A stretch of 64,000 nt of DNA, from positions 362,712 through 426,711 of the forward strand of contig JAHBXR010000001.1 of assembly GCA_019636335.1 (NCBI GenBank), in the 5' to 3' direction. A program made the translations under genes and the position numbers. This DNA is from Pirellulales bacterium (GTDB lineage: Bacteria; Planctomycetota; Planctomycetia; Pirellulales; JAEUIK01). Of this stretch, positions 1 to 6,089 are shown one piece after another. Below the pieces are notes generated by a model that worked only from the letters and a program-made list of their open reading frames with translations, was not told where the DNA came from and did no database searches. Positions within the stretch are counted from its first letter, which is position 1, and each line of letters starts with the position of its first letter.

Positions 1-1292
1 ACCTACCGCTCTGGCTCGCCGCCCCAGTGGTCTGGACCGGGCTCGAGCTGGCACGGGGGCATCTGCTGACGGGATTCACGCTGGCGAGCCTGGCCCACAC
101 GCAATACCGTTGGCTGGCCGCGATTCAGGTGGCCGATCTCGCGGGGGCCTACGGCGTGGGCTTTGTGGTCCTGTGCGGAGCGGCGTCCCTCGCCGCGGCG
201 CTGCCCTGGAGCGGAGAACGATTTCGCCCGCGCAGGCTCGTGCCTGGCGTGCTGCTCCTCGCAGCGACGCTCGGCTACGGCCAGTGGCGACTGTCGGAGG
301 AGCACACGCGCCCCGGGCCGCGCGTGGCCCTGATTCAGGGCTCAATCGACATCAAGGTCAAGGCCGATCCCGGCATGAAGGAGGTCGTCTTCCGCGAATA
401 TATCGAGCTTTCGCGGCTGGCGCTGCGCAGCGCCGACGACATCGACGTCGTCATCTGGCCCGAGACGATGTTTCGCGAGCCGCTGATCACCTATCGTGAC
501 GATGCCGCGCCCGCGCCGGGGCAGGAATGGGAGCGAGCCGATCTTGAAGCGGCCCATCGCTTGAGCCTCAACAACCTGATCGACTCGGCTCAGGGGCTGA
601 ACTCGGCACTTTTGCTCGGCTTGGATCGCCACGATTATGGCAACCAGCGCGTCTGGCAATACAACTCCGCGGTGCTAGTCGATCGTGCGGGCGAGTTGCG
701 CCATCAGTATGACAAGATGCACCCGGTGATGTTCGGCGAATACATCCCGTTCGGCGAGATTTTTCCCTTCGTCTATCGGTTGAGTCCACTTTCGGTGGGG
801 CTCTCGGCCGGGGCGGGGCCGGCCGCCTTCGAGGTGGATGGGGCACGGCTCGCGCCGAGCATCTGCTTCGAGAACATGCTGCCCCACCTGATTCGCCAGC
901 AAGTACTCACCCTGGCCGAGCAGAACCAGGAGCCCGACGTGTTGGTCAATCTGACCAACGACGGCTGGTTCTACGGTTCGAGCGAGCTCGACCTGCACCT
1001 GGCGAATGGGTTGTTTCGCAGCGTGGAACTAAGGAAACCCATGCTGATTGCCGCGAACACCGGCTTCTCGGCCTGGATCGACGCCGAGGGACGCATCGTC
1101 GAGCAGGGGCCGCGCCGCGCGACGGGATTCATCGTGGCCGATGTCGAACTCGACGATCGCCATAGTCCGTATCAAAGCTATGGAGATCTGCCGGCATGGG
1201 CCTGTCTGCTGGCGACGCTGGCGTTTGGCGCCGTCGGGCTGTGGGACTGGCGACGATCGGTCTGCTCGCTGCCGGGCGAGCCAAAGGGCTAG
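1..1292 (+). CDS. lnt: Apolipoprotein N-acyltransferase (5'-truncated by window edge)
   Basis: Lnt transfers an acyl chain from phospholipid to the N-terminal cysteine of lipoproteins at the outer face of the inner membrane. The frame is open from the first bases, so the start and the first membrane helices lie outside the window. What remains is the last transmembrane segments followed by a carbon-nitrogen hydrolase domain. The expected catalytic elements are visible in order: the glutamate of WPETMF, the lysine of YDKMHPVMFGEYIPF and the cysteine of PSICFENM, followed by NLTNDGWF. A final hydrophobic helix (DLPAWACLLATLAFGAVGLW) sits near the C-terminus, as is usual for Lnt. The motifs leave little room for another nitrilase-family assignment. 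Confidence 0.93.
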   Translation, partial: LPLWLAAPVVWTGLELARGHLLTGFTLASLAHTQYRWLAAIQVADLAGAYGVGFVVLCGAASLAAALPWSGERFRPRRLVPGVLLLAATLGYGQWRLSEEHTRPGPRVALIQGSIDIKVKADPGMKEVVFREYIELSRLALRSADDIDVVIWPETMFREPLITYRDDAAPAPGQEWERADLEAAHRLSLNNLIDSAQGLNSALLLGLDRHDYGNQRVWQYNSAVLVDRAGELRHQYDKMHPVMFGEYIPFGEIFPFVYRLSPLSVGLSAGAGPAAFEVDGARLAPSICFENMLPHLIRQQVLTLAEQNQEPDVLVNLTNDGWFYGSSELDLHLANGLFRSVELRKPMLIAANTGFSAWIDAEGRIVEQGPRRATGFIVADVELDDRHSPYQSYGDLPAWACLLATLAFGAVGLWDWRRSVCSLPGEPKG

Positions 1293-1570: not shown

Positions 1571-2437
1571 GTGAATTTCGTCGGCAAGATTTTTGTCGTG
1601 CTGATTACGGTCATGGCCTTGGTGTTCATGGCCTTTGCAGTGGCCGTCTATTCGACGCACAAGAACTGGCGTGACGTGGTGATGAACCCCACGCCCACGC
1701 CGGGCAAGCCTTTGGGCTTGAAGCCGCAATTGGATCAGGCACGCGCCGCCAACAACGATCTGCAGCTACAGATCGAGGCGCTGAGGACGGCCATCGAGAC
1801 CGAACAGGCCGGCCGCCGCGATCAAGTCGCCAAGCTCGAACAGGAAAAAGAACTGCTGACGCGCGAACGGGACGAGCGGCTCCGCGAGCAGGCGGCCCTG
1901 GTCGAGCAGACGCGACGCTCGGTGGCGGCGATGGAGGCCACGCAAAACACGCTTGAAAAGCTGCGCGAAGAGGTGGTGGGGCTGCGGGCTCGCATCGTCG
2001 AGGTCAGCCAGGACCGGGACAAGCACTTCGCCCGCATGGTGGAGTTGACCGATCAACTGCAGCAGGCCGACGGCCGCTTGAAGCTGCTCGAAGCGCGCAA
2101 CACCGAATTGCTCGAGCAGAAAGCCCGCATGGCGCAAGTGCTCGACCGCCACGGTCTCGATGAGTTCACGCCGGTGGACAACATTCCGCCCAAGATCGAC
2201 GGCATCGTGCTGGCCGTGGGAGACAAGGGGTTGCTCGAGATCTCGCTCGGATCCGACGACGGTCTCCGTACCGGACACACCCTCGAGGTCTATCGCCACG
2301 AGGCCACGAACAGCAAGTACCTTGGCCGGGTCGAAATCGTCGATCTCGAACCCGATCGTGCCGTGGCCAAGGTGATTCCCCAGTACCGCAAAGGCGTCAT
2401 TCAGAAAGAAGACCGTGTCGCAAGCCGATTCGACTGA
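1571..2437 (+). CDS. MreC-like membrane-anchored coiled-coil protein
   Basis: This 288-residue protein has an N-terminal membrane anchor (about residues 5-27), a long heptad-rich coiled coil (about 50-195) and a C-terminal beta-rich part (about 205-288). The last part contains SLGSDDGLRTGHTLEVYR and YLGRVEIVDLEPDRAVAKV. That order (anchor, coiled coil, beta domain with a GSxDGhrxG pattern) is the architecture of MreC, the scaffold of the elongation machinery, although overall similarity looks weak. The GTG start is supported by AGGAGAGG about 6 bases upstream. It overlaps the next gene by 23 bases and lies upstream of mreB, which strengthens the MreC interpretation. A generic coiled-coil protein remains possible. 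Confidence 0.6.
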   Translation: MNFVGKIFVVLITVMALVFMAFAVAVYSTHKNWRDVVMNPTPTPGKPLGLKPQLDQARAANNDLQLQIEALRTAIETEQAGRRDQVAKLEQEKELLTRERDERLREQAALVEQTRRSVAAMEATQNTLEKLREEVVGLRARIVEVSQDRDKHFARMVELTDQLQQADGRLKLLEARNTELLEQKARMAQVLDRHGLDEFTPVDNIPPKIDGIVLAVGDKGLLEISLGSDDGLRTGHTLEVYRHEATNSKYLGRVEIVDLEPDRAVAKVIPQYRKGVIQKEDRVASRFD

Positions 2438-2718: not shown

Positions 2719-3768
2719 ATGCTCAATCGAATCCTCGGATTCTTCGGCGCCGATCTGGCGATCGACCTGGGCACGGCCAACACGCTGATCAGCGTGGCGG
2801 GCGAAGGTCTCGTCTTGAATGAACCCTCGATCGTGGCGGTCGAAGAGGGGACGAATCGCATTCTCTCGGGGGGGTGCGCCGTGGGGCACCTGGCCAAGCA
2901 GATGCAGGGACGCACGCCCGGCTCCATCTCGGTGATACGCCCCCTGTCGCACGGCGTCATCACCGACTTCGAGTTGTGCGAGGCGATGTTGCGCTATTTC
3001 CTGCGCAAGGTGCAGCGCAGTCGCTGGCAGGGACGCCCGCGCGTCGTGGTGGCTGCGCCCGGCTGCATCACGCCGGTCGAGAAACGGGCCCTCTACAACA
3101 GCACGCTGCGTGCCGGAGCGCGGCAGGTGTTCTTGCTCGACGAAGCCAAGGCGGCCGCCATCGGCGTCGCGCTGCCGATTGCCGAGCCCGTGGCCAGTAT
3201 GGTCTGCGACATCGGCGGCGGTACGACGGAAGTCGCCGTCTTCAGCCTGGGGGATGTGGTGTCGAGCGCCTCGGTGCCTACCGGCGGCGACAAGATGGAC
3301 CAGGCGATCGTCGATTACCTGCGTCGCAACTACAGCCTGCGGATCGGGATTCCCACGGCCGAGCGTTTGCGGATCGACATCGGCAGCGCCTACCCGCTCG
3401 AAGAAGAGTTGGTCGACGAGGTGCGCGGACTCGACACCGTCAGTGGCTTGCCGCGCAAGGCGACGATCACGAGTGAAGAAGTCCGCGCGGCGCTGGGCGA
3501 TCCGCTGGAAGAGATCCTCGAAGCGATCCGCGGCACGCTCGATGGTTGCACGCCCGATCTGGCGGCCGACCTGGTCGATCACGGCATCGTGCTGGCCGGA
3601 GGAGGCTCGCTCGTGCGCGGGCTCGACCGCTTCGTGACGGAACGGGTTGGATTGCCGGCGCGCGTTTCGGCCGATGCCCTGACCGCGGTGGCCAAGGGGA
3701 CGTTGATCTGTCTCGAACATTTGCCGCGTTGGCGTCCTTCGCTCGAATCGAGCGACGACGAAGTCTAG
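2719..3768 (+). CDS. mreB: Rod-shape-determining actin homologue MreB
   Basis: MreB forms membrane-bound filaments that position lateral wall synthesis. The 349-residue length is normal. Actin-fold ATPase motifs are visible: phosphate-1 DLAIDLGTANTL near the N-terminus, phosphate-2 CDIGGGTTEVAVFSLG in the middle, and the adenosine motif GIVLAGGGSLVRGL near the C-terminus. The gene lies 46 bases after the small membrane protein gene and 23 bases before the PBP2-like gene on the same strand, so a single operon is likely. MreD and RodA are not encoded nearby. The short acidic tail (SSDDEV) is unremarkable. Confidence 0.95.
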   Translation: MLNRILGFFGADLAIDLGTANTLISVAGEGLVLNEPSIVAVEEGTNRILSGGCAVGHLAKQMQGRTPGSISVIRPLSHGVITDFELCEAMLRYFLRKVQRSRWQGRPRVVVAAPGCITPVEKRALYNSTLRAGARQVFLLDEAKAAAIGVALPIAEPVASMVCDIGGGTTEVAVFSLGDVVSSASVPTGGDKMDQAIVDYLRRNYSLRIGIPTAERLRIDIGSAYPLEEELVDEVRGLDTVSGLPRKATITSEEVRAALGDPLEEILEAIRGTLDGCTPDLAADLVDHGIVLAGGGSLVRGLDRFVTERVGLPARVSADALTAVAKGTLICLEHLPRWRPSLESSDDEV

Positions 3769-3791
3769 CGCGCGAGGCGTAAGGGATTCGC

Positions 3792-6089
3792 ATGCCGGCG
3801 GCGCCACCTTGGAACTGGGATGACGTGCGGCCCGCCGACGAGGCAGGCGCGCCGGCGGTCGATCCCCGCCGGCGGCTGCGCTGGGCCTGGCTGGCCTTTC
3901 TTCTCGGCTGTGCGATGGTCTTTGCGCGGCTCGTCACGCTCGAGGTGAACGAAGGGCCAGCTTTTCGCGCCGCGGCCACGCGGCCCATCGAGCGCCGCTC
4001 CTATCCGCCCGGCATGCGGGGGCGCATCGTCACGCGCGATGGTACCGTGCTGGCCGCCGATCGACCGTCGCAGGTGCTGGCGATCGAGTACCGGCGGCTG
4101 CAGGATCCGCCCCATGCCGACTGGCTGCGCCGCACCGCCCGCGCGGCCCTGCCCCGTCGCGAACGCCGGGACGCGGCGCGTCTGGCCGAGGCGGAGGCCA
4201 AGCTGCGAGTCGAGCTCATCGATCAGCACCGCCGGTTGGCCGATCTTTGTGGCGTGAGTCCCGCGGAGTGGGAACGCCGTCGTGCGGCGATTCAAACGCA
4301 AGTCGAACGCATCTCGCGGCGCGTGAATGAACGCCGCACGGAGCGTGACGCCCACGAGACGGCCCAGACTCGTCGACAGGCCGAGGAGTATTCTGGCGAC
4401 GAGGCCCCCTGGTACGCGCGGCTGGCGCAGATCGCTCGCCGGGTATTGACCCCAGACGAAACCGCACGCGAGTCGGTGCCTATCGTCGTGGCCGAGGAAC
4501 TTGCCTTTCACGTCGTCTCCGATGATCTTACCGGCGACATGGTCGACGAGATCGAACGGCATCCCGAGCGCTATCCAGGGGTCCGCATCGAAGAGCGGAT
4601 GACGCGCGATTATCCCGTCGGTACGCTGGCGGCCAATCTGCTGGGGCACTTGGGCGTTGTCGCGCCGGAAGAAATCGCAGCAGCCGCGAGTTCTCCGGTA
4701 ACGCACGCCTACGACGCGCGCGATCGGGTCGGTCGCATGGGGCTGGAGGCGGGATATGAACCCGTGCTTCGGGGCACGCGCGGAGAAACGGTCGAGTACA
4801 CTGATCCGCTCGGACGCGTCCTTTCGGTCGAGCACGCGCGCCAGGCGGCGGCCGGTCACGACCTAGTGCTGACCGTCGACGCGGCCTTGCAGGAAAGCGC
4901 CGAACGCTTGCTCGACGGCATGCTGGCGCGGCGTCCGCGCGAGCTGAGCGACCCGACGACGTCGCGGCAAGGACTCGGCGGAGGAGCGATCGTTGCACTC
5001 GACGTCGACACCGGGGCCGTGTTGGTGGCGGCTTCGGCGCCGCGCTTCGACCCGAGTTTGTTCTTGGGTGGCGATCCCGCGGAGCTTCAGCGCGTGCTCG
5101 TCGATGCCGAGCATCCCCTGTTCGACCGCGCCACGCGGATGGCGTTGGCCCCTGGCTCGACGTTCGAGCCGATCACGGCGTTGGCGCTGTTGAACGATCG
5201 GCATTTCGATGCCCAGGAATCGTTCGACTGCCAGGGCTATTACAAAACTCCCGAGCGGCAGCGTTGTGCTCAGTTCGTTCGCACCGGCGAAGGGCATGGC
5301 GAGCTCACGCTGCACGAAGCGCTGGCCGCCGACTGCAATGTCTACTTCTATCATCATGCCCTCGCCTTGGGTCCGCCCAAGCTGATCGACGTGGCGCTAC
5401 GTCTGCGGTTCGGACGTCCAACGGGGCTCGATCTGCCGGGCGAGTCGCGCGGATTCCTGCCCACGCCGGCCAATATCCGCGATATCGAAGGGCACGCCTG
5501 GCGCCACGGCGATACGCAAACCCTGGCGGTGGGGCAGGGCTCGCTGGCGGTGACGCCGCTGCAGATGGCTCGGGCCATGGCGGCCATCGCCAACGACGGA
5601 CGGCTCGTCACCCCGTACCTCGTCGAGCGGTTGAGCAAGCCGGCCGGAGGGTATGTCTCGCCCGACTTGCTGTCGGCCTATCAGCCGTCGCGTGGCGAAG
5701 AACGCTATGTGGAAACGATCGACCGTCGCGCGTTTCGCGAGCTGCGCGGGGCGCTCCACCTCGCCGATCGCCACGAATCGGCAGTAGAGACGGAAGCGAC
5801 AAAAGAGTTTCCCGCGCCGCGTCTCGACTTCGCCGGCAAGGCGGGCACGGCTGAAACCGCCGGCGCCCGGGCGAGTCATGCCTGGTTTGCGGGGTTCGCG
5901 CCGGCGGATGCTCCATGCGTGGCGTTTGTCGTCGTGCTCGAGCATGCCGGCGACGCGCAGCAGAACGCCCTGCCCATTGCGACACGGCTCGTCGAGCGCA
6001 TGCGGCAACTGGGCTATTTCGAGTCGGACGACGCGCCGCCTGGCGCGCGAGTCGCCGGCATGCGCCGTGGCGAGTCGCTGGCCGAATAG
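3792..6089 (+). CDS. PBP2-like transpeptidase-fold protein with degenerate active site
   Basis: This 765-residue protein has the class B penicillin-binding protein layout. It has a short cytoplasmic stretch, one membrane helix (about residues 35-55), a dimerisation domain with GMRGRIVTRDGTVLA near residue 75, a charged helical insertion (about 120-220) and a C-terminal transpeptidase fold. The three catalytic motifs are altered. The SxxK box reads Ser456-Thr-Phe-Glu459, so the general-base lysine is glutamate. The SxN box reads Asp514-Cys-Asn516. The KTG box reads Lys683-Ala-Gly-Thr. Family knowledge predicts loss of normal acylation. Its position directly after mreB indicates a role in elongation, perhaps structural. 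The frame is intact throughout, so it is not an obvious pseudogene. Confidence 0.85.
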   Translation: MPAAPPWNWDDVRPADEAGAPAVDPRRRLRWAWLAFLLGCAMVFARLVTLEVNEGPAFRAAATRPIERRSYPPGMRGRIVTRDGTVLAADRPSQVLAIEYRRLQDPPHADWLRRTARAALPRRERRDAARLAEAEAKLRVELIDQHRRLADLCGVSPAEWERRRAAIQTQVERISRRVNERRTERDAHETAQTRRQAEEYSGDEAPWYARLAQIARRVLTPDETARESVPIVVAEELAFHVVSDDLTGDMVDEIERHPERYPGVRIEERMTRDYPVGTLAANLLGHLGVVAPEEIAAAASSPVTHAYDARDRVGRMGLEAGYEPVLRGTRGETVEYTDPLGRVLSVEHARQAAAGHDLVLTVDAALQESAERLLDGMLARRPRELSDPTTSRQGLGGGAIVALDVDTGAVLVAASAPRFDPSLFLGGDPAELQRVLVDAEHPLFDRATRMALAPGSTFEPITALALLNDRHFDAQESFDCQGYYKTPERQRCAQFVRTGEGHGELTLHEALAADCNVYFYHHALALGPPKLIDVALRLRFGRPTGLDLPGESRGFLPTPANIRDIEGHAWRHGDTQTLAVGQGSLAVTPLQMARAMAAIANDGRLVTPYLVERLSKPAGGYVSPDLLSAYQPSRGEERYVETIDRRAFRELRGALHLADRHESAVETEATKEFPAPRLDFAGKAGTAETAGARASHAWFAGFAPADAPCVAFVVVLEHAGDAQQNALPIATRLVERMRQLGYFESDDAPPGARVAGMRRGESLAE

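Follow-up and report, generated by a model that had tools for sequence, protein, structure and literature searches.

A PBP2 homologue with a degenerate transpeptidase centre, kept behind mreB in a Pirellulales bacterium, may act as a non-catalytic SEDS partner

Results

An open pbp2 frame lies directly behind mreB

We analyzed a window of 64,000 nucleotides (the whole stretch of DNA under study) from the genome of a Pirellulales bacterium (6.38 Mb, 99.1% complete, contamination 0.78%). Near the start of the window, a gene for a PBP2-type class B PBP follows mreB. Below, G, C and L handles denote genomes, contigs and loci, with G000 for this genome.

27..1292, + strand: lnt (apolipoprotein N-acyltransferase), 5' end beyond the window
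1571..2437, + strand: coiled-coil protein of 288 aa without Pfam family, a position between lnt and mreB that is kept in relatives across the order
2719..3768, + strand: mreB, 349 aa, 23 nt upstream of pbp2
3769..3791, + strand: mreB-pbp2 junction, occupied by mreC and mreD in G312, G310, G326 (L103) and G294
3792..6089, + strand: pbp2, PBP2-type class B PBP of 765 aa, predicted to be catalytically degenerate (open reading frame, Pfam, phmmer, AlphaFold2, Foldseek)
3864..3977, + strand: predicted membrane helix, residues 25-62 (AlphaFold2 model)
4008..4829, + strand: pedestal, PBP_dimer PF03717, residues 73-346 (Pfam E 6e-29), with conservation typical of the order
4983..5987, + strand: transpeptidase domain PF00905, residues 398-732 (Pfam E 2e-52)
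5157..5168, + strand: SxxK changed to STFE, residues 456-459 (alignment with order homologues)
5331..5339, + strand: SxN changed to DCN, residues 514-516 (same alignment)
5769..5819, + strand: remodelled loop ahead of the KTG strand, residues 660-676, about 5 additional residues, G662E/T663S, low model confidence
5838..5846, + strand: KTG changed to KAG, residues 683-685 (same alignment)

The first-pass annotation had described an intact 765-residue frame with STFE, DCN and KAG in place of the catalytic motifs, and the reading frame, Pfam and the alignment to order homologues bear this out. The frame runs uninterrupted from an ATG and its GC3 is normal (0.77). Its product has the N-terminal membrane helix, the PBP_dimer domain and the transpeptidase domain of class B PBPs. 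The AlphaFold2 model adopts the PBP2 fold (mean pLDDT 82, pTM 0.77), and its best Foldseek matches are PBP2 structures (6tii, E 4.6e-39; 6pl5, a RodA-PBP2 complex, E 1.4e-37); phmmer matched the protein to 7zg8 (E 5e-54). It is the sole PF00905 match in the genome, and the search for a second PBP2 found none. Across the phylum, 288 of 294 genomes carry a PF00905-type protein, mostly two per genome.

The usual elongation context that had been claimed for the gene holds as far as mreB is concerned, but the mreC and mreD of several relatives are missing here. Neither was seen between mreB and pbp2 in the locus comparison, and a search of the genome detected no MreC. The Rod complex set (MreB, MreC, MreD, RodA, PBP2) is therefore incomplete, with MreB, a SEDS protein and the PBP2 frame found, no MreC, and no MreD at the locus. 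As a cause of PBP2 inactivation, the loss of MreC is non-specific: PBP2 is intact in other genomes that lack MreC.

Constraint was apparently lost at the catalytic residues and kept in the pedestal

APG-S456-T-F-E459, D514-C-N516 and K683-A684-G685 align unambiguously on the S-x-x-K, S-C-N and K-T-G of order relatives. Because the motifs fall exactly on the relatives' catalytic columns, there is no intact SxxK elsewhere in the protein. The catalytic S456 itself is retained, as is K683, and none of the three active-site motifs of PBP2/MrdA is complete. We infer that the product is a PBP2 homologue and a pseudoenzyme, not an active D,D-transpeptidase.

We compared the protein with 27 intact homologues at the 68-70 columns that do not vary among them; a single intact homologue shows 0 to 4 changes at such columns. 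Six columns are altered here (K459E, S514D, V657L, G662E, T663S, T684A), three of them catalytic residues (hypergeometric p 0.012). G294, another genome of the order with a degenerate PBP2, has seven altered columns (L374I, S456G, A463T, S514G, T663A, K683L, T684S), of which four are catalytic (p 0.0013). The motif losses are not due to chance in either protein. Mean identity to the intact homologues over the membrane helix and pedestal is 41.7 here and 38.9 in G294, inside the intact range of 35.5-46.0, whereas the transpeptidase domains score 47.2 and 47.1, lower than in any of the 27 intact proteins (48.5-56.2). At 0.91, the length of the PBP2 branch lies among those of relatives (0.76-1.13), with no acceleration. 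The pattern is that of a catalytic domain apparently released from selection while the pedestal was held.

Degenerate PBP2s probably arose separately within the order

Of the order's 397 genomes, 49 have a PBP2 homologue, and in the other 348 none could be detected. We could read 46 of these matches, after setting aside that of G423 (E 9.8e-4, four stops), which is probably a chance match, and two more that cover no motif. The motifs are intact in 43 of the 46, with two partial readings among them (G346 at KTG alone, G673 at SxxK alone). We therefore reject an order-wide motif loss, and the suggestion that the change may be lineage-wide is not supported. The remaining three are this genome, G294 and G303. 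A GTDB scan returned no congener of this genome, and the order members that it did return have an intact PBP2.

G294 belongs to the same family as this genome and reads PGGIFK, GCN and LSG. In G303, from a different family, motif segments are deleted or replaced and 29 of 68 invariant columns are lost, but the 698-aa frame is still open; identity there is 33.7 in the pedestal, just under the intact range, and 33.6 in the transpeptidase domain. Besides the degenerate pbp2 (L251, on contig C257), G303 keeps mreB, mreC and SEDS. All three genomes combine an open frame, a membrane and pedestal region near normal, and one SEDS protein with its catalytic Asp.

A tree built from seven concatenated wall genes places G294 with G312, which has an intact PBP2, rather than with this genome (98.8% SH-aLRT, 69% bootstrap), and so speaks against a loss shared with G294; the deep forks of the PBP2 tree itself are weak. 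The losses are therefore best read as independent, so that PBP2 catalysis would have been lost at least three separate times in the order.

The SEDS polymerase is retained wherever a PBP2 frame is retained

In a raw tally of 49 order genomes that ignores relatedness, each of the 28 genomes with a PBP2 homologue, those with a degenerate one included, encodes a single SEDS protein, and the 21 that lack PBP2 encode none. A genome that keeps SEDS therefore also keeps a PBP2 frame, catalytic or not. The SEDS gene of this genome lies on another contig than pbp2:

L082:8044-9219: SEDS (RodA/FtsW), with a TD aligned to E. coli RodA D262

In all three genomes with a degenerate PBP2, SEDS keeps the Asp matching E. 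coli RodA D262 and nearly every invariant position; ours has lost 3 of 57 invariant columns. A Y to H change in SEDS (SHGGS) is not tied to PBP2 degeneration, as G354 has SHGGS together with an intact PBP2. The 23 order genomes examined for it yielded no class A PBP (GT51), and SEDS is therefore the only glycan polymerase of a known type. Conservation of the pedestal, taken together with co-occurrence, suggests that PBP2 may activate SEDS.

The D-Ala-D-Ala and cross-linking branch appears to be down

We also surveyed the rest of the peptidoglycan pathway, with the following features.

L088:8361-10346 (G000, C3), + strand: murB-ftsQ region without ddl, which sits there in six relatives
L191:8558-9667 (G000, C10), - strand: Ddl-like protein of the ATP-grasp type, PF07478, 370 aa; relatives occur in G310 and G337
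L087:9907-11358 (G000, C9), + strand: murF, open frame, catalytic motifs broken (NxNN, AHL, AKGE)
L085:7157-8491 (G000, C11), - strand: the genome's only YkuD protein (LysM and YkuD domains), reading SGGTIA
C4:310461-311876 (G000): S13 (PBP4-like) D,D-peptidase with intact STTK and KTG

Relatives have the order murC-murB-ddl-ftsQ, and here murB is followed directly by ftsQ. The murB-ftsQ region of G354 likewise lacks ddl; that genome has an intact PBP2 and another Ddl-like gene. No canonical ddl was found, since none lies between murB and ftsQ and the remaining PF07478 protein, on C10, lacks the SPGMT segment. This protein is unlikely to restore D-Ala-D-Ala synthesis, its relative in G310 coexisting with a canonical ddl.

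MurF has lost 18 of 74 invariant columns, against 2-8 in relatives, and its branch is accelerated (1.17 against 0.47-0.91). The substitutions at invariant ligase residues include N148D, N150A, N151D, H202E and K216Q, which we take for the residues of the asparagine motif, the invariant histidine and the lysine that carries the carbamate in Mur ligases. The YkuD protein reads SGGTIA where relatives read SRGCIR (SRGC, not SHGC, is the norm in the order), and has thereby lost the catalytic Cys of L,D-transpeptidases; its branch is not accelerated. The same Cys is replaced by Ser in G303 and G296 and kept in G294.

Few invariant columns are lost in MurE (0 of 54), MraY (0 of 14), MurG (1 of 57), MurC (1 of 77), MurB (4 of 104) and MurD (2 of 34), and by this measure MurB, C, D, E and G, MraY and SEDS are intact. 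With ddl missing and both MurF and the sole YkuD apparently broken at their catalytic residues, the D-Ala-D-Ala and cross-linking branch is, as judged from the genes, down. The genome would thus be an intermediate that keeps tripeptide precursor synthesis and SEDS, with the D-Ala-D-Ala branch and both cross-linkers dead. The loss of ddl, the degenerate MurF and YkuD, the missing MreC and the intact SEDS are a pattern beyond that described in the first-pass annotation.

Canonical MurJ is missing from most order genomes with SEDS and PBP2, being present in G313 and G306, and another lipid II flippase is therefore likely in most of the order.

Discussion

Two jobs are ascribed to class B PBPs: they cross-link, and they switch on the SEDS polymerase. 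We consider it probable, with real room for doubt, that the pseudo-transpeptidase is kept for the second, as the non-catalytic partner of the genome's sole SEDS protein, which would polymerize a glycan that known enzymes do not cross-link. The SEDS polymerase would need a class B PBP through its membrane helix and pedestal, and the gene would be retained for that. The catalytic centre would be free of selection because D-Ala-D-Ala stems are neither made nor used any longer in this lineage. With ddl lost and MurF broken, lipid II would be made with a tripeptide stem, which SEDS would polymerize with PBP2 as an activator or scaffold, yielding a glycan without cross-links from any known transpeptidase. 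Loss of acylation, SEDS activation and the uncross-linked tripeptide glycan are all deduced from the genes. This agrees with the structural or regulatory role suggested in the first-pass annotation, which is the best-supported part of an interpretation that stands only in part.

Published work bears on this reading from both sides. RodA polymerization requires PBP2, whose opening activates RodA (PMC10257715), and RodA still polymerizes while mecillinam blocks PBP2 (PMC6207328). In Rhodopirellula baltica, DAP and the sugars of peptidoglycan have both been found (PMC4432640). Uncross-linked strands are, on the other hand, normally degraded (PMC6207328), which counts against our proposal. So do the S13 D,D-peptidase, the retained S456, the lack of a canonical MurJ in most of the order, and the pedestal identity of G303, which is just under the intact range.

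The strongest alternative, which we hold to be rather unlikely though serious, is that pbp2, murF and ykuD are non-functional relics awaiting deletion in a lineage that is losing peptidoglycan synthesis like most of the order, with SEDS and the other mur genes to follow. The relaxed transpeptidase domain, the missing MreC and the decaying MurF fit such a stepwise loss of the whole pathway as well. Most of the order has no detectable PBP2, and few Mur ligases are left in genomes without it. A loss of murA, C, D, F, G, murJ and ftsW has been reported for Pirellulales, Isosphaerales and Gemmatales (PMC12283558). In P. limnophila, rodA and pbp2 can be deleted without effect, and mur and other genes are dispensable as well (PMC10632474). 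Here ddl and mreCD are already gone, and MurF, with its accelerated branch, may at least be decaying. However, all frames are open with normal GC3, the PBP2 and YkuD branches are not accelerated, and MurC, D, E, G, MraY and SEDS appear intact. The open frames, normal PBP2 rate and normal pedestal, together with three parallel cases in which a degenerate PBP2 and SEDS were kept together in apparently independent lineages, argue for a retained function.

Cross-linking may instead be done by another enzyme (the S13 peptidase, a VanW-type or other transpeptidase, or one that uses tripeptide stems), with PBP2 still a non-catalytic SEDS partner. The S13 protein keeps STTK and KTG, and YkuD-family L-Ala-mDAP 1,3-cross-links, for which D-Ala-D-Ala would not be needed, have been reported (PMC10864386). 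We find this improbable, as the genome's sole YkuD lacks the catalytic Cys and the S13 protein (whose STTK and KTG were read in this genome) also occurs in the PBP2-less genomes G121 and G328.

It had also been suggested that the protein has an alternative chemistry, and the remodelled centre with S456, E459, D514 and K683 might then be its active site, but this is very improbable. S456 and K683 remain and the two acidic residues were introduced together, but this set occurs in no homologue, the substitutions differ among the degenerate lineages (S to G and K to L in one, segments lost in another), the upstream D-Ala-D-Ala enzymes are lost too, and the loop ahead of KAG is poorly modelled. A sequencing, assembly or alignment artefact has next to no credibility, for although the exact substitution set is seen in a single genome, the frame is clean, three separate codons are changed, contamination is low, and coherent losses in ddl, MurF and YkuD lie on other contigs.

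A bolder reading, which we put forward tentatively and rather doubt, is a free-living bacterium with uncross-linked MurNAc(tripeptide)-GlcNAc strands, in which the obligate PBP2 of SEDS is a pure allosteric subunit, a conversion that would have happened at least three times in the order. These lineages appear to have split the two jobs of class B PBPs in evolution, three times, which makes the SEDS-activating job testable without drugs or engineered mutants and offers a natural test of an idea known only from such mutants. This genome also suggests a possible order in which the wall pathway is dismantled, starting with the D-Ala-D-Ala and cross-linking branch and reaching precursor synthesis and polymerization later, which is relevant to how planctomycetes came to manage with scarcely any peptidoglycan or none. 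Such cells are predicted to be naturally indifferent to drugs that target D-Ala-D-Ala or its transpeptidases.

Comparison with known systems

The protein shares domain order, fold, sequence and position after mreB with PBP2/MrdA (E. coli, Yersinia pestis, Acinetobacter baumannii and the T. thermophilus RodA-PBP2 complex). It differs in its broken SxxK, SxN and KTG and in a long helical insert in the pedestal, and further in that the SEDS gene is not adjacent and the genome lacks MreC. The genome also fits the Planctomycetia pattern of mur and fts gene loss described for Pirellulales, Isosphaerales and Gemmatales (PMC12283558), as an apparent intermediate in which the tripeptide precursor and SEDS are still kept.

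In a search that covered subscription journals poorly, we found no paper on a class B PBP that has been inactivated repeatedly in nature and retained together with its SEDS partner. The closest parallels are catalytic mutants of B. subtilis PBP2b and C. difficile SpoVD, likewise class B PBPs that their SEDS partner needs and that function without transpeptidase activity (PMC12713402); PMC5656894 gives a further precedent for a class B PBP working without catalysis. Those PBP2b and SpoVD cases are engineered, in cells that have other transpeptidases, whereas the loss described here is natural and apparently repeated, and would leave the cell with no active class A or class B PBP.
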